A stretch of 14,764 nucleotides of DNA from Candolleomyces eurysporus. Taxonomy: Eukaryota; Basidiomycota; Agaricomycetes; Agaricales; Psathyrellaceae. Under the pieces are notes generated by a model, which made no database searches, was not told the DNA's origin, and was given only the letters and a program-made list of their open reading frames with translations. This document shows, one piece after another, positions 879 through 14,764 of this stretch; the stretch's first letter is position 1; each line of letters begins with the position of its first letter. Position numbers and translations under genes: made by a program. The stretch lies in assembly GCA_027579435.1 (NCBI GenBank), contig JANBPK010000411.1, positions 1 through 14,764 on the forward strand, read 5' to 3'.

Positions 879-2525
879 ATGGGGAGAAATCAAGGTGGAA
901 ATGGCAAGAAGAAGGACAAACTCAAGTCTACCACCCGCATTCCCTCCTTGGCCATCCAAGGATCCAGCTCCCCTCTTCTTTCCGCGTCCACGATCAAGGT
1001 CAAGAAGCTTAAGTCCACAGGAACGGGATTCAAAGTCACTGACAGCGCTTTCCGCTCTGACGTCAACACTACAATCGCCGCTTTTGCCTGGAAGGAGACT
1101 CATTTATCAAACTCCCAATTGGATACAGTGTGGAGCCGAGTTCATGGCTCATCAGGTTGGGATCAAGGATACGTCGATAGCTTCATGAATCAGGACAAGC
1201 TACCACCCGAAGCCGATCCTGAGCTTCCAAAGACAAACGGGAAAGGGGTATGTGCCTTATGATCATTATCAATCCCGCTAATTAATCGAGATGTAGGACA
1301 AAGCAATGCATGAGTGGATGAAACACGTTGACACTTACCTCCGAGCACTAATTACGCTGGAGGGGTGTGGAGAGTCCACTCATGATTGTTGCTTGTTATG
1401 TCGAATTCAGGACCACAAGGGTCAGTTCCGGTGCCTGAGCTGTTCCAACTTGGGCCTGGTTTGTCGGAACTGCATCATCTCAACGCATCAATACTCACCT
1501 CTGCATCGCATAGAGGTACGAATTCTTCTCTCAGGCAATATCTTTCTGACAGGTGTGTTCATAATAGATGTGGAATGGGATCTACTTCAAGAGATCTTCC
1601 CTCTAGTCCCTTGGTGTTCAAATCCAACTCGGCCACCCAGTTGGCGAATGGTGCCCCTGCCCCAACACATCCTGGGGGGATGATTTTGTCATAATTGATT
1701 GCGATCAGATCCATTCAGTCAGGTTGGATTACTGCAGCTGTGGTTGAACCTCAAAGGGCCAGGTTGAACAATTGCTCGAATGGCATCTCTATCCAGCGAC
1801 TGTGGTCAATCCCAAGACGGCAGCAACTTTCCGAGTTCTCAAATTTTTTGAACTGCTGCAGTATGAGTTGAAGCTCTTGACCTACGAATTCTACCAAACC
1901 ATTTCTCGTCCGACAGATAACACTGGGATACATGTGCCCAAGGTACGCCTTTCCAAATTGGCTGATTTGAGACAATCTGAATCTATTGGAATTAAGGATC
2001 GTTATCCTACCCTACTCTGCATAGTCCACCAATGGAGACACCTCAAACACCTCAAACATACCGGTAGGGGGCATGATCCGGTCTGTGGTGCATCAGAAAC
2101 CCAACCAGGAGAATGTGCGCTCCTCTGCCCACCCTGCCCTCATCCGGGGATCAACCTTCCAGAGGGATGGGAAAATGCGGCCAAGGGATTGAAGTGCGCC
2201 TTTTGTTTTCTTGTTTCAAGTCTCATCTGAACAAGCTCTTGAATAGATTCCTGTATGCTCTCAATATAGCCCTTGATGCATGCTTTCGAATGAAATGCAA
2301 GGACTGCTCCAGCGAAGTAGCTGATCCCAGTCTCAGCAAAGGCTTTGCATACATCGTGGAGGAGTCGGCATTCCAGGAGTATTTGAAGAAGCACAACAAT
2401 GAAACTGAGCCAAAGAGCACATGCTCCCGTCATGATGCGGTGAATCTTGTGGACATGCAGCCAGGCCAAGGATACACTTTGACCGGAATAGCAACAGTGG
2501 AATGTAGCTGACATAACTTCAAGCA

Positions 2526-2798
2526 CACTGTGGTTTTTGATGTGTTTGTTCAAAGAGCACATTTTAAGCAAACCAAATGCAAGGGTTGACTTTGTCTACA
2601 ATCTGCAATACAAATGTTCAAGCTAGGCAAATTCAAATTTGCATTGCATGTGTCTGGCCTCCTTCTGCCACCACTAAAACTTTGCTCAATATGTGTCCAA
2701 TGTGGGCACATTAAACAAAAACTGTAAACATATACATTCCTTGCACCTGATTTACTTAAGATGTGCTCATTGAAAAAACACATAAAAAAACCACAGTG
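2526..2798. mobile_element. CACTA-type MITE, copy 1 (273 bp)
   Basis: Non-autonomous element with CACTGTGG at the left end and CCACAGTG at the right end. The terminal inverted repeats run about 60 bp, with roughly one mismatch in seven and one small indel. It is flanked by a direct GCA (2523-2525 and 2799-2801). Removing the element and one GCA restores the KDZ codons ...HNFK-QLQ-AV..., in the length the family expects, so the insertion site is exact. A second copy lies at 7222-7493. CACT(A/G) ends with 3-bp target duplications are the mark of the CACTA/EnSpm superfamily. It has no coding capacity; open frames across it are incidental. Confidence 0.9.
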
Positions 2799-4181
2799 GC
2801 AGCTGCAAGCAGTGTGTGACATGCAGAGGGGTGAACAGTGCATATTCCATTCTCCAGACTCCTCGACATCTCAGGTGTTAACATCCAAGACAGCTACTGC
2901 AATATGGACTATATCACCATCCTGAGCATTCAAGCTTTTCTTCAGCTGTTCTTTATTTCTTATGACATTGCGTGCCAGTGGTTCATCCACTTGCTCATGC
3001 GGCTTGCTCAGATTGACCCCACATGCCCACTTCTTTGCCTGGAGGTAGAGATACAATTTCTTGTTTCTAAGTTTCATCTCCTGGCCCATATCCCCGCTTG
3101 TCGAAATTGGTTTGCTTTCATGTTGACACCAGGCGCTGGGCTTGGAGATGGAGAAGCCCCAGAGCATGGATGGGGTGAACTTAATCCTTTGGCAACCAGC
3201 ACTCGTGAGATGGGTCCCGGTACATGTCGGGACACGCTCGATTATCACTTTGGCAACTACAATTGGAGGAAAATTGTCAGATTGAGTGAGTCTTAATTTA
3301 GATGCACCAAATCAGTATAAATGCTGGTGACCAGTTGACGTCCTTCACCTCTAAACAGGTGACTCTCTTTTGAAGAAGATGGTGACTGCTACCTCTGATG
3401 TAGCGGAGCACATCATTGCCCACCAGGAGTTGGAGTCAACGATCAGCCTCGAAAAACTCCAGACTTGCACAGAGGCTATGCTTGCATGGGAACTCAATCC
3501 ATCCAGCCCTAATCCATACGAGATTGCCATCAAGACGCCAACACAAGCAGCGGTAAGACGTCAGCTCGCAGCAGAGGAAGAGCAAGCCTTGACGGTAGGG
3601 GTTGACATTGCCCTGTTGGACGAGGTGTTGCCTTCTTCATTGATCGCTAGGGGCATAGATCTCAAAGGCAAACAGTACGTGCACCTCCTCCAATGATTTG
3701 CTTGGTGTCTGATCCCTCATTTAGGCACTCGTTGAAGATGTTAACTAACTCGCTGTGGGAGCACTCTCAAGACCGTCAGATCACCCGGGTCACATTGCGA
3801 TCGAATGTGCTTACGCAGAAACTCGAAGAATGGTTCAGTCTCCTTCAGCTTTACATCCCTGCTTCCATCCTTTTAAGGAAGCGGGAACCACAATGGAAGG
3901 AGAGTCCAAAACTGTTCGATGTTCAACTCTGGTTACCCTCTCACATTGGAAAATTGGTCCCCTTCGACAGATCCCTGGCCAAAATTGAGTACAAACTCTG
4001 CAATGCCCAGGCCCACAAAGCGCTTGGAGTCCTCCGCTGCAACCTCCAGATTTGTGCCACTCTATACGATGTGAAGGACCATTGGCTTTGGGGTCAAGGG
4101 GCCAATACACGAGCCCTGAATGCTATTGCCACTGTACAAGCACACATCGCGGCAGCACGAGACGAGTACCAATAGGCTCAG

Positions 4182-6679: not shown

Positions 6680-7221
6680 TAGTGTCAAGCTGCAACACCA
6701 AAGTGGTGTATGTATATCATGAGTAAGTAGTGTGATCGGGGTGAAGCGAGGACATTGGACTATGGGACCTGAGTAGTGCTATGGTGGTGCAATCAGGTAG
6801 GGCTGCAGGCTCAAGCAGTGGTGATTCCCGAGGGCGGATGGTGCATCAGTGTAAGAATCCTAGCAGGCTGACACTGAGCTTCGAAGTGGTGCTACACTGG
6901 TGCAATCAAGGCGGGGAGAGGTTGTAGGTTCAGAGCATCTGACAGCAGAAAGTGGTGCAAGTGGTGCAACCAAGGTGAGGGATGTCAGGCTACGGCAAAG
7001 TGGTGCTCAGGGCATACAGGATCAAGTGGTGCTTGGTGGTGCAATCAAGGCGGAATGAAGTCGGGTTCCGGGCTTATGAATGAGGATAGCTGGTGCAAGC
7101 CTGATATTGTGGATGAAAACACCAGCATCAAAGTGGTGTTAACACTGGTGCAATCAAGGCATGAGGTATGGGCTCACAGCATCGGCCTAGAGTATCAAAG
7201 TGGTGCTTGGTGGTGCAATCA

Positions 7222-7493
7222 CACTGTGGTTTTTGATGTGTTTGTTCAAAAAGCACATTTTAAGCAAACCAAATGCAAGGGTTGACTTTGTCTACAATCT
7301 GCAATGCAAATGTTCAAGCTAGGCAAATTCAAATTTGCATTGCATGTGTCTGGCCCCCTTCTGCCACCACTAAAAATTTGCTCAATATGTGTCCAATGTA
7401 GGCACATTAAACACAAACTGTAAACAAATGCATTCCTTGCACCTGATTTGCTTAAAATGTGCTCATTAAACAAACACATCAAAAACCGCAGTG
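7222..7493. mobile_element. CACTA-type MITE, copy 2 (272 bp)
   Basis: Same family and orientation as the copy at 2526-2798, differing at a modest number of positions by eye. It begins CACTGTGG and ends CCGCAGTG, and is flanked by direct TCA (7219-7221 and 7494-7496). Without it, the repeat word GCAATCA continues into the repeat field, so it landed inside an existing repeat unit. The different 3-bp flank from copy 1 (TCA versus GCA) confirms the element boundaries independently. Confidence 0.9.
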
Positions 7494-7560
7494 TCAGCCG
7501 GGGTATGGGCTTGAGGGCAGAGGGTGGCATCAAAGTGGTGCTGCATTGGTGCAATCAAAG

Positions 7561-7646
7561 TAGACCGGTAACCAATCGGTCTTGATATGAAGACTGCGTG
7601 GTCTATCGACAGACGTAGGCTTCATATCAGACCGGTTACCAGTCTA
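7561..7646. mobile_element. 86-bp foldback element
   Basis: Begins TAGACCGGTAACC and ends GGTTACCAGTCTA. The arms, about 30 nt each, pair almost throughout (TAGAC, GGTAACC, CGGTC, TGATATGAAG) with a few mismatches and a small indel, leaving a short centre. It is flanked by direct CAATCAAAG (7552-7560 and 7647-7655). Because CAATCAAAG is itself close to the surrounding repeat unit, the true target duplication could be 7-9 bp. TAGAC-type ends with an 8-bp-class duplication would suit a hAT-derived MITE; a 9-bp duplication would suit Mutator-like. Assignment is open. Confidence 0.75.
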
Positions 7647-8215
7647 CAATCAAAGCAGGGGAGGATAGCTCAGTAACGATTGAAGTGGTGCACAGTGGTA
7701 CAATTATGGCAGGGGAAGGGACGTATTCACTGATGTTGCGCTACAGATCAAGTGCAGCTCAGTGGTGCAATCAAAGCGGAGCAATGTCGGGCTACGGGCT
7801 TAATATGAGGGCAGCTGGTGCAAGACTGAACTGGTGCATAACACTGGTTGATGATTTGAATTGAATACACCAAGTGGTGCGCAGCTGGTGTAATGTAAAA
7901 ACTCAGTAACATATGACTGGTGCAATGAAGGTCAGTGTGAAACAATTACACCAAGTGGTATATGCTGGTGTTATGGCTGCTGATGCACAACAGTGCTGGG
8001 ATGAATTTGATACATCAATTGGTGCACATTGGTGCAATGACGGATGGTGCAGAACGGTGCTGGGATGCACCACTTGGTGCAGGGCTGGTGCAAGGATGAC
8101 TGGTGAGCGTAGGCCTACGGTGCGTTGTGAGGGGAGAGTACAATCAATGTCATTATTGCATCAGAGGGAGACAACAATTGTACTAGAATAATGCACCAGC
8201 CTGCCAGGGCCTGGT

Positions 8216-9609: not shown

Positions 9610-10340
9610 TCACCCTTCCTTGACCAGAATGTCATAGTGTCCAGAGCTATAGACACCGAAATCAGTCACGGCCCTGATAGGCCACCAGTAAGCCAGAGAG
9701 ATGCACCGATACAGCACTGTAAGTGGTTTCTGAGTCTCAGGGCCCTCTCAAAAATGCTCAAATTTGACGCCATCTGTTGGTCGTCTGTCTAAATATGCTA
9801 CGTTGAGATTGAGCTCGAGAGCCCAGGACAGAGCAATCACTTGCATTGTGATCTAGAGGGTATTGGCATGGGTTGAGTGCCTTGGTGGGGTACACCAGTA
9901 TCACTGTACCTGCTTCCGTGCCGATTGGATCAATGTATTTGTTACAGAAAGATTCAGCGTCAAGATGGGTCCCAGTATCGGTGTCGTTGAGGAAACTTTC
10001 ATATTCTTCCACGTTGTTCTTTACTTGAGCCCGCTGATTTAGGGTGTGAGATCTCATTCAAATCATTGTATTATTGGACCTCACCGTCGGCAGTCGTAGA
10101 TAGAAGATGATATTGAGCAGCGTGGACCCTTGCCAAGAGACCAGTATCAATAAGCATCTATCTCGAAATAAGGGTGATGTAACACTACCGATGATGTGGT
10201 TGCTTTCAGACTCTTGCGCTTTGAAGATCTCTAGTAACCTTGTTGGGGTCAGTGTTCGCTGTTGAGAGTCGGGTATGAAGATGTTCTCAATCAATTTTTC
10301 AAACTTTTCGAATGCATCGACGACAACGATCGCCTCAGTG
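9610..10340 (-). pseudogene. Otubain-like deubiquitinase remnant, 3' part
   Basis: Otubains (peptidase family C65) are cysteine proteases that cleave ubiquitin chains. Reading leftwards on the minus strand: VVDAFEKFEKLIENIFIPDS and LTPTRLLEIFKAQE from 10331 to about 10189, FYLRLPT near 10090, then 10057-9910 (RSHTLNQ..., FCNKYIDPIGTEA), 9839-9707 (IALSWALELNLNVAYLDRR) and 9646-9610 (SGHYDILVKEG-stop). These match the family order, including the C-terminal GHYDIL that carries the catalytic His. Introns at 9840-9909 and 9647-9706 are GT-AG and keep frame; one at 10129-10188 is likely but less sure. Two in-frame TGA codons, at 10060-10058 and 9750-9748, break the frame. The gene's upstream part continues at 14636-14764 beyond the inserted element. 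Confidence 0.82.
10334..10340. repeat. Target site duplication, left copy (CTCAGTG)
   Basis: CTCAGTG directly precedes the left terminal inverted repeat and is repeated exactly at 14636-14642 directly after the right one. In the otubain gene it encodes part of GTEA. Confidence 0.85.
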
Positions 10341-10381
10341 TAAGGTTGGCGAGAACCGCACGGTAGGAATTTCTCGCGTGC
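10341..10381. repeat. Left terminal inverted repeat (41 bp)
   Basis: Starts TAAGGTTGGCGAGAACC and runs to CTCGCGTGC. It pairs with 14595-14635 with mismatches only at positions 3, 4 and 12 from the outer end. Inside this point the two ends stop matching. Confidence 0.9.
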
Positions 10382-10403
10382 GCACACACTAGAAACTTCC
10401 ATC

Positions 10404-10752
10404 CCAGGTTTTTTCCCTGGCGGAGAGACCTGGCTTTTCCAGGCGAATTTGTTGGCTATCCCAGAGTCCTTTCCTGGAAAGACCATGTCAGGTCCTGGAG
10501 TGACCAGGGACGCCCGTACAGGTAAAATATCTGGGTAAACTCTGTCAAATTTTCCAAAAGCCTGGAAATGTTTTCCCCTGGCTTTTCTATGGAAATCCCA
10601 TAGAATTTTGCTTGTGTCTTTCCAGGTCATATTTCTGGAGTTACCAGTAATTTCTACCTGGGATTGCCAATGCATTTCCAGGTTCACGCACATGGTAAAC
10701 CCATTAAAAATATCGTTGTAAGCCAATAAATGTCCAGTATTCATTCCAGGCG
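10404..10752. repeat. CCWGG cluster near the left end of the element
   Basis: Thirteen CCAGG/CCTGG words occur in about 350 bp, where chance would give about one. Several form palindromic pairs with fixed spacing: 10404-10420 (CCAGG, 7 bases, CCTGG), 10429-10443 (CCTGG, 5 bases, CCAGG) and 10494-10508 (CCTGG, 5 bases, CCAGG). Subterminal repeats of this kind bind the transposase in CACTA, hAT and P elements; such a role here is inference. A long minus-strand open frame crosses this cluster and the TIR into otubain; it is not a real gene. Confidence 0.7.
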
Positions 10753-11811
10753 TCGTATACAGCGAAAGTACAATAATTTGTGGGGGGAATATAGGGATGT
10801 TTATGTAGAAATATAAAACCAGAAGGAAAGTATNAAAATCCTTATGGAAAAAAGGTGGAGTAGCCGTGCGTCATGAGGTAACCAACTGAGGCTTCCTGAC
10901 CTTCAACTTGACGTGCTATCATATCACGTCCCAAATACAATAATCATCGCCTGGGAAGGAAGTTGAAAGGGGAGCTGAATATCGGACACCGCCAACCACT
11001 AACCGCCATTGCCAAAGCCGCAATATGAACAGGCCCTTCCGTCTTGCGAATCAAACCGCCAAGCCCCGCTCCCACACTTTGTTGGTCTTCAAGAACACAT
11101 CGACTTGGAACGGCAGGCGGAAGGAGTCATTGTCGATGTCCGGTGGGATATTGCACAATAACAGAGGAAGGGGAGAGAGACGGTGAAGCGTTGTGGGTGA
11201 CAGTGAAGGCAAAGGGTAAGAGAGGAATGCGAGGGAACGCCACAACATATGGGCTGGCGGCTGACAGCCCAACCGCCGATTTGGTCTGACCTATTTTTAT
11301 CAGGATACCAAGTTAGATCGTCTCAGTCAACACTCGCCATCGCCACCAGGTCCCATCTCTCTAATTTCGCCAAGTACCAGTGATTTCAAGCGATGCTGAG
11401 AACAAGGGCACCGATTAACTTAGAGAATGTGATACCATTTTCAGTTTATACAAATCCCTTTCTGACTGCAAACGAGAGGCAGTAAACGAGTCTGGTTTTA
11501 CCAGAGCTTCTCCAGGGTTGACACAGGAAGAAGACCTGTCATTGAAACACCTGGTCGGTTTCCCTGGACGCGGCCAAGCTGACAAACCGGGAATTTTCCA
11601 AAAACCTGTCACGATCAGGTCTGGGACGGATGTGTCCAGAGCAAGCCAGGGAAATGACCTGGGAAATGGTTTCATAGTGACACTAAGGGACAAACACTGC
11701 CAAACCAAGCAGTGCTAGCAAGCGCAGGCAAGGTTCGTCGTGCATATTCATGGTAATAAATAGTACAACAAATGGAATGAATTACCATACTAAGTCTTTG
11801 AGAAAGCTGCT
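10753..11811. other. Left interior of the element, no gene seen
   Basis: No coding similarity found. A second CCWGG group lies at 11491-11662: TCTGG-N5-CCAGA at 11491-11505, CCAGG at 11512, CCTGG at 11550 and 11563, and CCAGG-N7-CCTGG at 11646-11662, repeating the 5- and 7-base spacings of the left cluster. A small hairpin, GGGCTG-N8-CAGCCC, is at 11251-11270. An N at 10834 precedes an A run. The 3' untranslated part and end signal of the integrase gene should lie left of 11812 but no clear signal stands out. Confidence 0.5.
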
Positions 11812-13756
11812 CTATCCAAGAGCTGCATCGCATGGGATGTGTGGAAGCATCAGGGTGAATGTCTCCCATCCCGTCGTTGGTGGGCTTAATGACGGGGATC
11901 CAATGGTAATGAAGGCAGCCTGAGCAATGTGAGAGAATTCAGCGCTAACCCATCGCATTGCCTCATCGCGAGGGGTGGGTATCTTTGATCGAAGGTGGTC
12001 AAGAACCTCCTGATGCACCGGAATTGATACCTTTTCTGCCGGCGCTTTGGGCGCAATGAAAGCATGTTTAGGAGTTGAGCCGCACATGTTGGGCTTCTCC
12101 TTTTGGGTGCGAATACGATGGGTGTTCCAAAACTCAGTGAAAGTATCGAGCTGCTCTTGTACAACCTTAGGCCACAGCCAGTAGAACAGAAGCCTGTGCA
12201 AGATGAGCAACATGCATACCTATGACAATACAGCAGAACTTACAGATGTACGGGATTATTTGGGTTGTAAAAACCATCTCGATATCCATTAACAATAACA
12301 TCCTTGATGTTGAGGCCATATGTCTTCAGGAACCAGTGCCATAAACCTTCAATGGGTGTGTTGTGTATGCTGCGAATTTGGATCATGGGAGGGTACTTGT
12401 CCACATCAAAATCAGTGTAAACCGTACTTTAAAGTAGTCAGTGTCATCATCAGTTCATATTACAAGTATCTGCACGTACCGAAGTCCTGTTTGATGAGCA
12501 AACATTTCTCCAATCTCTGAGCCTTTGTCAACGACCATCGTGATGGGAATGACTGGATGAGCGAAAATGACAGCCCAATCAGAGCATGTTTGTAGTGAGA
12601 TGCCTGTTTGAAACTTATGTTTCTCCTTCTCAACGGCATCAAGATAGACATGTCCAATGGTGTCCGCAAGTCGATTGTTGGGCACGACAACGAGGTGGAT
12701 GATGAATGAAGACCACTGGTCTTTGATACCGTAGATGGTGATCCCAACCCCACCCATTCCTAGAGCTTGTGCATTGAGCTTCTCATGACCGTCTGCGTGG
12801 TACTGGTGGCCGGGTCCTAAGGCTGAGAGCGATGATCGCTTGATACGATTTATACCTGGGAACCGTTTATCTAGCCCTTCAGGTGCATGCAATGCAAGAA
12901 TCCGTCGAATGGTATCACTATGGAACGTCAATAAAGAATGTCAACTCAGCTGAAACACCAGAAATGTACCAAGAAAAGCTCACCGAGGTATCAATATTCT
13001 TTTGTTCGCAATAAGAGTCCCAATAGTTGCTGTCCCGTACACGTCGCATACCATCATGCCGGGAAATCGTACCGGATAGATAAGTCTGTGGTTTCCAGCC
13101 ACGTCCCCAAAACCCAAGATCCAGATTAGCGGACTTGAGGCTCCGTTTATCTTCCGTCTTCACTCGGCATTCAAAGTTCACAATGACGTTGTCTTCTCCG
13201 GTGGAGGAAATACTCGAGCTGGATCTTCCAAGAGGTCCTCCAGGAGCAAAGGCTGGAGCAGGCTTCTTGGTGAGGCGAGCGTCAAGGACTTGAAGCACTA
13301 GCCGCATCGCATGCCAACCTCTCAATCTCCGAGCGTTCTGCAAATAACGATGGTCCATTAAGTAATTTTCCTCAAAAAAAAGCGTCAGATTTCATCCACC
13401 TGCCAGGGTTTTCTCAGAACTTGTTTGCCGGGGAGGTGAATCACGCAGCCCATACTCAACACAGCCTCGAGCTCCACACGTCTTCCCGATGAGGCGCTTA
13501 TATGTCGTGCTGCACGCAATACATTGAGCATAGTCCTAAACAGGTTACACCATAAGTGAATGATACAGCAAGCTAGTTAAGAGGAGAATACGCATACCAG
13601 CAATTTTTTGTACTCCAGGGAACCCTCTTCAAGGGAAGAAAGCTTCTCGCACTTGTCGCAGAGTCCGGCCAACGGTTTCTGAGGGAACCATCCACCGCAG
13701 CCGTCCCCGCTAATCCCAAAGTCCAAGCAGAGACCAGCAGTATTGTCGCCACCCAT
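11812..13756 (-). CDS. Zinc-module / integrase-core transposase (529 aa model)
   Basis: Presumed transposase of the surrounding element. Exons on the minus strand: 13756-13598, 13535-13400, 13318-13073, 13029-12984, 12917-12480, 12426-12244, 12193-11812. All six introns are GT-AG (43-81 nt) and the sum is 530 codons including stop, without internal stops. Residues 1-78 hold a Cys module: C33-x2-C36, C58-x2-C61, C73-x4-C78. Residues about 140-180 (VNFECRVKT..., LDLGFWGRGW, TYLS) resemble the region before agaricomycete alpha-kinase domains. The integrase part begins near 182 (TIGTLIAN, IPRDTIRRIL) and has ADGHEK (D238), VDKGSE (D326) and NTPIEGLWHW (E368), a complete D-D-41-E set, then LLFYWLWPKVVQ, FWNTHRIR and the C-terminal WVSAEF...IGSPSL. 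From 12984 leftwards the model is firm. Weaker points are the 43-nt intron 13030-13072 and the acceptor at 13319; a better-looking acceptor at 13338 leads to a stop. The alternative is two genes, an alpha-kinase-like fragment and an integrase with a start near 13057. Confidence 0.75.
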
Positions 13757-13851
13757 GATGAGAACTAAGAGACTGAATAACTCAGAAGTAATGCGTACAG
13801 AGGTGGTTGGAAGTTAGGGTATGAGCCGCCTAAGTTGACTTCAATATGGCT

Positions 13852-13861
13852 GTATATATAT
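13852..13861 (-). promoter_or_regulatory. TATA-like box of the transposase gene
   Basis: TATATATA-type run on the minus strand about 100 bp before the start codon at 13756, a plausible core promoter distance. No other candidate is nearer. Confidence 0.5.
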
Positions 13862-14560
13862 GAGCACTGTACCGTTTCAAGGCTCAGCGTATTCTGACAT
13901 GAATTCGTCTCCCCTCTGCATAAAAATCGAATGATGTTGAGGATTTTTGCGTTCCCAGTCGGCTGTGACTGTTTGAATTTTACTTACTCTTCTGCCGGCA
14001 TCACCTGGTTCTCCAGGAATACAAAGGCTACGCTCGATTCTGTTTTATCCGCTCGCTGTTAGCACCTGAAAGGGGTCGAGGCTCGGAGACCATCTTTTTT
14101 TTACAGCATAACATCTCGGTTTCTCAGAAGCAGCCTGGACTCCGATGGCCTTGAATGTGGAATTTAACGGTGAGGTGAGTCTTCCGAGCTTGATCCACAG
14201 ACTTAGAGCCACGGGATGAAGCATTCCTTGTTCCCTTTTCGCACTTAGCATTTGAGTGCATGCTCTGGGATCTTTATTCCTGCATGTAATACACCTTGCT
14301 TCTGGCAACTTTCCTTCCACTGTGGATTACCGGCTAGCTTCTGACTCGAAGCGCACTGTACTGCCGGCGGTACTGACCCTTTCTCAATGGAAAGAACGAT
14401 GTCCTCCTCTTCTCTGCATGTATAAACAGTTACATTAGTCCTTTGCAGCAATACCGACGCGTCCTTGATCAAATCTGGTTCCACAGAACGCGAGAATCGA
14501 ACCATCTTTACTGTTGACTCGAGAAGCGGCGGAGCCTGAAGCGTCGTTGACGGTATCACC
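13862..14560. other. Right interior of the element, no gene seen
   Basis: Probably the transposase promoter region and right subterminal DNA. Minus-strand open frames at 14045-14320 and 14245-14598 are unrecognised and overlap each other, so they are unlikely to be genes. CCTGG and CCAGG occur together at about 14006-14018, one further spaced pair like those at the left end, but no dense cluster is present here. Confidence 0.4.
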
Positions 14561-14602
14561 GACTGGGCGCACAAGACTGGGCGCGCGAGACTGGGCACGC
14601 GA
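14561..14602. repeat. Three 14-bp tandem units running into the right TIR
   Basis: GACTGGGCGCACAA, GACTGGGCGCGCGA and GACTGGGCACGCGA follow one another without gaps at 14561, 14575 and 14589. The third unit contains the inner end of the right terminal repeat (GCACGCGA). The left end lacks these units, so they arose by duplication at the inner edge of the right TIR. Confidence 0.85.
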
Positions 14603-14635
14603 GAAATTCCTACCGTGCGGTTCCCGCCAACGCTA
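14595..14635. repeat. Right terminal inverted repeat (41 bp)
   Basis: Starts GCACGCGAGAAATTCC and ends CCCGCCAACGCTA. It is the inverted partner of 10341-10381 (38 of 41 match) and is followed directly by CTCAGTG. Confidence 0.9.
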
Positions 14636-14764
14636 CTCAGTGCCGGCTTTGATGATTACTTCCTTTGTCGAAGATAGAATGGAAAGCTGGATCATAGCTT
14701 CGACTTTGAGGTCGTCTCGAGGACAGCTGAGGCTGTTCAATATAGGCGAACGCGAGAGCTTCAT
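14636..14764 (-). pseudogene. Otubain-like deubiquitinase remnant, 5' part (runs off the window)
   Basis: On the minus strand from the window edge, one frame gives EALAFAYIEQ, matching the helix that follows the catalytic Cys (GNCFYRA) in otubains; that Cys would lie just beyond 14764. After about 12 further codons the similarity continues in the next frame (LKVEAMIQLSILSSTKEVIIKAGTE) and then joins the part left of the element. The residue count between the two frames fits the family, so a single-base indel near 14711-14735 is likelier than an intron. The first 7 bases (14636-14642) are the right target duplication, CTCAGTG. With the two stops downstream, this gene copy is dead. Confidence 0.72.

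Follow-up and report, generated by a model that had tools for sequence, protein, structure and literature searches.

Ends, target site and empty sites

The window, that is the whole 14,764-nucleotide stretch of DNA analysed here, is contig JANBPK010000411.1 (C919) of the mushroom Candolleomyces eurysporus (assembly GCA_027579435.1, Psathyrellaceae), whose genome was analysed as 65.85 Mb in 1,296 contigs. In this window a host reading frame is interrupted by a transposon with an integrase-core transposase gene, which most likely belongs to the IS3EU/GingerRoot group and which itself contains a smaller CACTA-type element. The interrupted frame, the target duplication and the terminal inverted repeats (TIRs) are arranged as follows.

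10058-10340, minus strand: host frame, portion downstream of the interruption (...AIVVVDAFEKFEK...), placed by the empty paralogs
10334-10340: left target duplication, CTCAGTG, single copy in the empty paralogs C1010 and C508
10341-14635, minus strand: IS3EU-like transposon as present, 4,295 bp in total, 2,999 bp once the nested insert and its duplication are subtracted
10341-10384, plus strand: left TIR, TAAGGTTGGCGAGAACCGCACGG..., matching the right end at 40 of 44 positions
14592-14635, minus strand: right TIR, TAGCGTTGGCGGGAACCGCACGG... (read inwards), placed by comparison with the left end
14636-14642: right target duplication, CTCAGTG, single copy in the empty paralogs C1010 and C508
14636-14764, minus strand: host frame, portion upstream of the interruption (MKLS...IIKAGTE), placed by the empty paralogs

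The inverted ends agree in 38 of 41 positions, a count given in a preliminary description of this DNA and obtained again both on re-comparison and independently, and in 40 of 44 when extended; the left end reads TAAGGTTGGCG... and the reverse complement of the right end TAGCGTTGGCG.... CTCAGTG stands as an exact 7-bp direct flank on either side of the element. When joined, the flanks align to uninterrupted paralogous sites on C1010 (89%, 1189 columns) and C508 (94%, 235 columns), each with one CTCAGTG only, the final base of which is N in C1010. Both natural copies read through as ...IIKAGTEAIVVDDAFEKFE..., which bears out the earlier proposals of a perfect 7-bp flank and of a host frame that rejoins when the element is removed (KAGTE + AIVVVDAF).

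A sibling copy (C887:11372-14365) lies at an unrelated site, is 98% identical and stops at the same two end points as the copy in the window. The integrase element proper measures 2,994 bp in C887 and 2,999 bp in the window, the latter without the nested insert and one ACA. The C887 copy lies in a short, high-copy repeat, and the genome contains dozens of related sites without interruption.

A further match, C1055:182104-182296, was excluded as an independent copy. It has the right end at 182104-182167 and a 129-bp right flank that is 100% identical to that of the window, with Ns and other sequence to the left, and judged by this sequence the two are probably one site that was assembled twice. 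On C1260 (17124-17168) there is a lone window-type end with no partner end, whose outer flank finishes ...CACTCAG, near the window's right flank on the opposite strand (CACTGAG).

A nested CACTA-type insertion

10387-11679, plus strand: nested non-autonomous CACTA-type element, 1,293 bp, CACTA...TAGTG, absent from the C887 copy

The nested segment is flanked by ACA on both sides (10384-10386 and 11680-11682), and the C887 sibling lacks both the segment and one ACA. Relatives of this segment occur on ten other contigs, and two whole relatives show 3-bp duplications of their own (ACA/ACA on C1052 and TCA/TCA on C673). A Pfam scan of the open reading frame (ORF) at 10058-10744, which spans the left end of the nested element and is its sole ORF scanned, gave no match. 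The segment resembles CACTA/EnSpm transposons in its CACTA...TAGTG ends and its 3-bp duplication (2-3 bp expected) and differs in being non-autonomous, judged by size. On these sequence comparisons, it is a separate CACTA-type element inserted later into the integrase element. A single 4.3-kb unit, as first described, is ruled out by the C887 copy and by the independent copies of the nested element: the DNA transposon and its integrase-core transposase stand, but the size becomes 3.0 kb plus the insert.

Transposase and alpha-kinase genes

11812-12193, minus strand: last transposase exon; its ORF has a weak PF24764 match (E 0.0023, below the curated cut-off)
12244-12426, minus strand: transposase exon with the catalytic Glu (codon near 12348-12350)
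12480-12917, minus strand: transposase exon with two catalytic Asp, the codon of the first near 12791-12793 and that of the second near 12527-12529
12984-13057, minus strand: first recognisable transposase exon, where homology begins at residue 96 of the full-length relative P0002; exon limits modelled
13071-13708, minus strand: residual front part of an alpha-kinase gene that has lost its kinase-domain part, recognised by protein-level matches to the kinase-gene front of C868 and C534

The transposase was traced by tblastn with P0002, a full-length homologue of 422 aa from Ephemerocybe angulata. The match starts at residue 3-4 in C534, C868 and C1184 (the C868 gene contains stops), at residue 56 in C650, at residue 96 in the window and C887, and at residue 97 in C917. 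All three acidic residues are retained in the transposase core of the window. A 66-nt stretch within the exon at 12480-12917 can be read as a GT-AG intron in C887, and P0001, the protein record of that sibling, omits it; in the window it has no GT donor and would insert 22 residues between both Asp. Because the front ~95 residues are missing and the intron donor is lost, the window copy presumably makes no working transposase.

The predicted structure of P0002 begins with a helical region at the N-terminus, after which comes an RNase H core of the retroviral-integrase type carrying D, D and E. The N-terminal 140 residues, in a consensus of 54 homologues, show helices instead of a conserved His/Cys pattern, and PF24764 was the sole Pfam family in 12 of 12 homologues scanned. 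A sequence search of PDB with a 12-protein profile returned five chance matches only (E at least 0.17).

In C534 and C868, an alpha-kinase gene lies upstream of the transposase (PF02816, E 4.5e-10 and 4.6e-11, respectively). PF02816 is found inside the C534, C868 and C650 elements, while the window keeps the front part of the kinase gene only. There, as in C887, the kinase front runs directly into the transposase core, the first ~95 enzyme residues being absent, and relative to C534 and C868 the window element is short of ~2.4-2.5 kb at a junction between ~13036 and 13071. A first gene model had taken the ORFs at 13756-13000 for the transposase N-terminus (a 548-aa spliced protein, with a 456-aa part); comparison with C868, C534 and the homologues ruled it out, as the stretch is the alpha-kinase front and one splice site was wrong.

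Integrase matches were found on 22 contigs with a 456-aa query, counting only matches that extend past query residue 129; those within its first 129 residues (C868, C1077 and C534) are kinase front and were left out. The PF02816 profile gave 13 matches on 11 contigs, and on 8 of these 11 an integrase match lies within ~3.1 kb of the kinase match, on the same strand in C868, C1077, C1184, C534 and C195 and on opposite strands in C650, C417 and C981; the integrase matches on C195 (7.8e-5) and C417 (1.7e-4) are weak. The kinase contigs C539, C93 and C61 have no match of the 22-contig set nearby. Under random placement, the chance of 8 of 11 is roughly 1e-19 (22 integrase contigs, 3.5-kb reach). 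TET/JBP (PF12851) gave 26 matches on 26 contigs, 23 of them above the curated cut-off, and C99 is the sole contig with both a TET/JBP and an integrase match, ~10 kb apart.

Related elements in the genome

A pattern built from the ends of the relatives (at most 3 mismatches) has 32 matches in the genome versus 0 for the reversed control, and the 13-base core of the ends has 46 versus 11. With the element start taken at the TRN preceding GGTTGG (CGTTGG at the right ends of the window and C887 elements), both related ends could be paired in 13 elements (12 in one set, plus C650). The target duplication is exact and 7 bp long in four (window, C534, C1216 and C469), exact and 6 bp long in five (C887, C1045, C264, C293 and C989), and imperfect in C650 (6/7) and C1097 (5/6). 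When left and right flanks were swapped among 12 paired elements, an exact direct match of at least 5 bp appeared in 0 of 132 pairs.

The duplication is strictly 6 bp in C1045, C264 and C989, which rules out a fixed length of 7 bp. At the C887 target, uninterrupted copies of the surrounding repeat match both flanks with a 6-bp overlap, and since a sibling of 98% identity thus has a 6-bp duplication, a length of 7 bp is of no diagnostic value. The preliminary description had looked to other copies for the same ends and 7-bp flanks; the ends recur, with C887 stopping at the same points, but the 7-bp flanks are found in 4 of 13 only.

The terminal bases are TAA/TAG in the window and C887, TAT/TAT in C650, C868 and C469, and TG at one or both ends in the remaining relatives. 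The TIRs start with TAAGG/TAGCG and span 41-44 bp in the window, and start with TATGG and span 224 bp in C650. Eight of the 13 paired elements hold transposase sequence, a count that the preliminary description had left to be made, and none was matched in the other five (C1045, C264, C293, C989 and C1027a). A related end lies within ~5 kb of the integrase match on 15 of the 22 integrase-match contigs.

Single ends without a partner (C44, C211, C957, C1029, C1077, C1142, C554, C614, C1218 and C1226) were left out of the duplication counts, as were C1219 and the second right end of C1027; C917 has two related ends in the same orientation, which cannot be paired. The C1216 element (83017-83896) is short and contains two C-terminal parts of the transposase that point in opposite directions. 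The two loci with the strongest PF24764 matches in the genome, C99:34060-34628 and C24:17274-17839, are of a different subtype and showed no convincing terminal repeats in 5.5-kb stretches.

Two observations are new: duplications are 6 or 7 bp even between near-identical copies, and kinase and integrase lie close together on 8 of the 11 kinase contigs.

Origin and movement of the element

We conclude that the window very probably contains a DNA transposon of 3.0 kb that has inverted ends of 41 bp, most likely falls in the IS3EU/GingerRoot group, duplicated a 7-bp target, later received a CACTA-type insertion, and is non-autonomous and moved in trans. A full-length enzyme of the P0002 type would bind the TRN(G/C)GTTGGCG ends and insert them into the two strands of the target at points 6 or 7 bp from each other; repair of the gaps would then create the target duplication. 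The arrangement of kinase front and transposase core would stem from an internal deletion, and copies of the window and C887 type would be non-autonomous and mobilised by a full-length relative, since the same arrangement sits at two unrelated targets. The suggestion that the element defines an undescribed transposon family was not upheld, as its ends, 6-7-bp duplications, fold, lack of HHCC and alpha-kinase match published IS3EU/GingerRoot features.

Several points weigh against this assignment. The window element likely belongs with IS3EU, where it is filed by ends, duplication length, gene content, fold and published descriptions, not by a tree, and three protein searches gave no link to rust IS3EU proteins (among all 54, the best 120 of 144 and the best 120 of 184 matches). 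Its duplication is 7 bp versus the usual 6 bp described for IS3EU, and several relatives have TG rather than TA ends. C868 and C1027a, the remaining two of the 13 paired elements, have no duplication fitting the register (the ends of C1027a are possibly mispaired), and the 6 bp of C887 and C293 are the parsimonious count, since the following base of the target is identical to the terminal T and a 7-bp count is possible. None of the 26 TET/JBP matches lies within 5 kb of an integrase match. Finally, the mobility of the element is deduced from sequence comparison.

It is unlikely that the elements form a separate, undescribed superfamily of Agaricomycetes, one akin to IS3EU/GingerRoot but set apart from it and defined by duplications of 6-7 bp and ends of the TRNGGTTGGCG type. 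Such a superfamily would accommodate the 7-bp duplications of four paired elements, the common TG ends, the distance between TET/JBP matches and integrases, and the same-strand kinase and transposase of C534, C868, C1184, C1077 and C195, unlike the TET-bearing IS3EU; however, C650 of the same genome shows the published fungal IS3EU anatomy, with an imperfect 7-bp repeat as its flank, and its transposase is homologous to those of the other elements.

It is highly improbable that the integrase is a passenger between ends moved by another enzyme, even though the transposase gene of the window is truncated and 5 of the 13 paired elements have no transposase match. Related ends recur around integrase genes, as the 15 of 22 contigs attest, and a Pfam scan of the listed ORFs (5/5 in the window and 6/6 in C650, at least 100 aa; 7/7 in C534 and 6/6 in C868, at least 90 aa) found no other transposase domain, the only families at the curated cut-off being PF24764 and alpha-kinase. 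The same ends around an unrelated transposase, a possibility raised at the outset, were thus not seen in these elements. Least probable of all is a transposon of the Ginger1/Ginger2 type, which would share the integrase-like core fold, but for which excerpts of PMC10045372 give duplications of 4 bp (Ginger1) and 4-5 bp (Ginger2) and an HHCC domain in Ginger1, against 6-7 bp and an N-terminal consensus that lacks a conserved His/Cys pattern here, a mismatch in length that had been recognised from the start.

Beyond the assignment of the window element to IS3EU/GingerRoot, we lean slightly towards the view that mushroom IS3EU-type integrases form a lineage whose stagger is 6 or 7 bp, even among copies of 98% identity, and which would carry most of the alpha-kinase genes of this genome. 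If so, many orphan 'integrase core domain' proteins and alpha-kinases of Agaricomycetes would be parts of one mobile-element family. A set of mushroom proteins annotated as 'integrase core domain' or hypothetical gains ends, target duplications, empty sites, non-autonomous derivatives and a tie to alpha-kinases. The variation between 6 and 7 bp offers a small, clean case for how an integrase sets cut spacing. For annotation, the results suggest that integrase and alpha-kinase genes of this kind are better masked as transposon genes than counted as host genes.

Other features of the window

1772-3296, plus strand: a Kyakuja/Dileera/Zisupton-type transposase gene upstream of the integrase element; its frames encode the domains CxC2 (PF18803, E 5.1e-15) and KDZ transposase (PF18758, E 2.3e-30)
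2520-2789 and 7216-7485: two direct copies of a 270-nt repeat, which are 95% identical and lie 4.7 kb from each other; an inverted partner occupies 7414-7494
6765-8067: several degenerate units resembling AAGTGGTGC..GGTGCAATCA

Comparison with known systems

The predicted catalytic core resembles those of retroviral integrase, IstA and TnsB; the structure matches shown share 9-15% identity, and the systems differ in host, ends and gene content. A relationship to prokaryotic IS3 and IS481 is taken as stated in excerpts of PMC10045372, the proteins themselves lying outside the present comparison.

Two other groups produce duplications of the same length, according to excerpts of PMC12730594. The hAT7 subgroup makes 7-bp duplications, so that length, the ground on which hAT had first been set aside, is insufficient; the rejection itself holds, as the window family has an integrase-type fold and PF24764 alone in 12/12 homologues, with no hAT-type transposase. 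Kyakuja elements combine a KDZ transposase and 7-bp duplications with CA..TG ends and no TIRs, whereas the window element has TA..TA ends with 41-bp TIRs, and PF18758 lies at 2113-3296, outside its ORFs.

The IS3EU/GingerRoot elements, as outlined in PMC10045372, have TA..TA ends (occasionally TG..CA in GingerRoot), duplications usually of 6 bp and a DDE enzyme that is integrase-like and lacks the HHCC motif. The elements described here agree in the TA..TA ends of the window and C887 copies, in 6-bp duplications in 5 of 13 paired elements and in an integrase-like DDE enzyme with no HHCC pattern, and the TG of several relatives has its occasional counterpart in GingerRoot. They differ in the exact 7-bp duplications of 4 of 13, a comparison made by description and not by Repbase sequences. 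IS3EU elements have been counted in genome annotations of Ganoderma and Phlebopus, as far as excerpts of these reports go; within titles and abstract beginnings, with Repbase outside this scope, no agaricomycete IS3EU element with ends and alpha-kinase was found described.

Fungal IS3EU elements have TIRs longer than 30 bp, TAYGG..CCRTA ends and an alpha-kinase gene; TET-bearing members are described from rusts, with a 6-bp duplication, and from Tuber, and in TET-bearing families a TET/JBP gene lies between the transposase and the alpha-kinase, these two being oppositely oriented (excerpts of PMC12730594). The present elements differ from the TET-bearing ones in having no TET/JBP match within 5 kb of the integrase matches, in the same-strand kinase and transposase of the five contigs named above and, for the window copy, in the missing kinase domain and transposase front. 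They share TIRs longer than 30 bp and an alpha-kinase beside the transposase, and the ends of C650 are exactly TAYGG..CCRTA. C650, with TATGG..CCATA ends, 224-bp TIRs and a kinase opposite the transposase, fits the fungal IS3EU elements except that its 7-bp flank is imperfect and that no TET gene is recognised in it.

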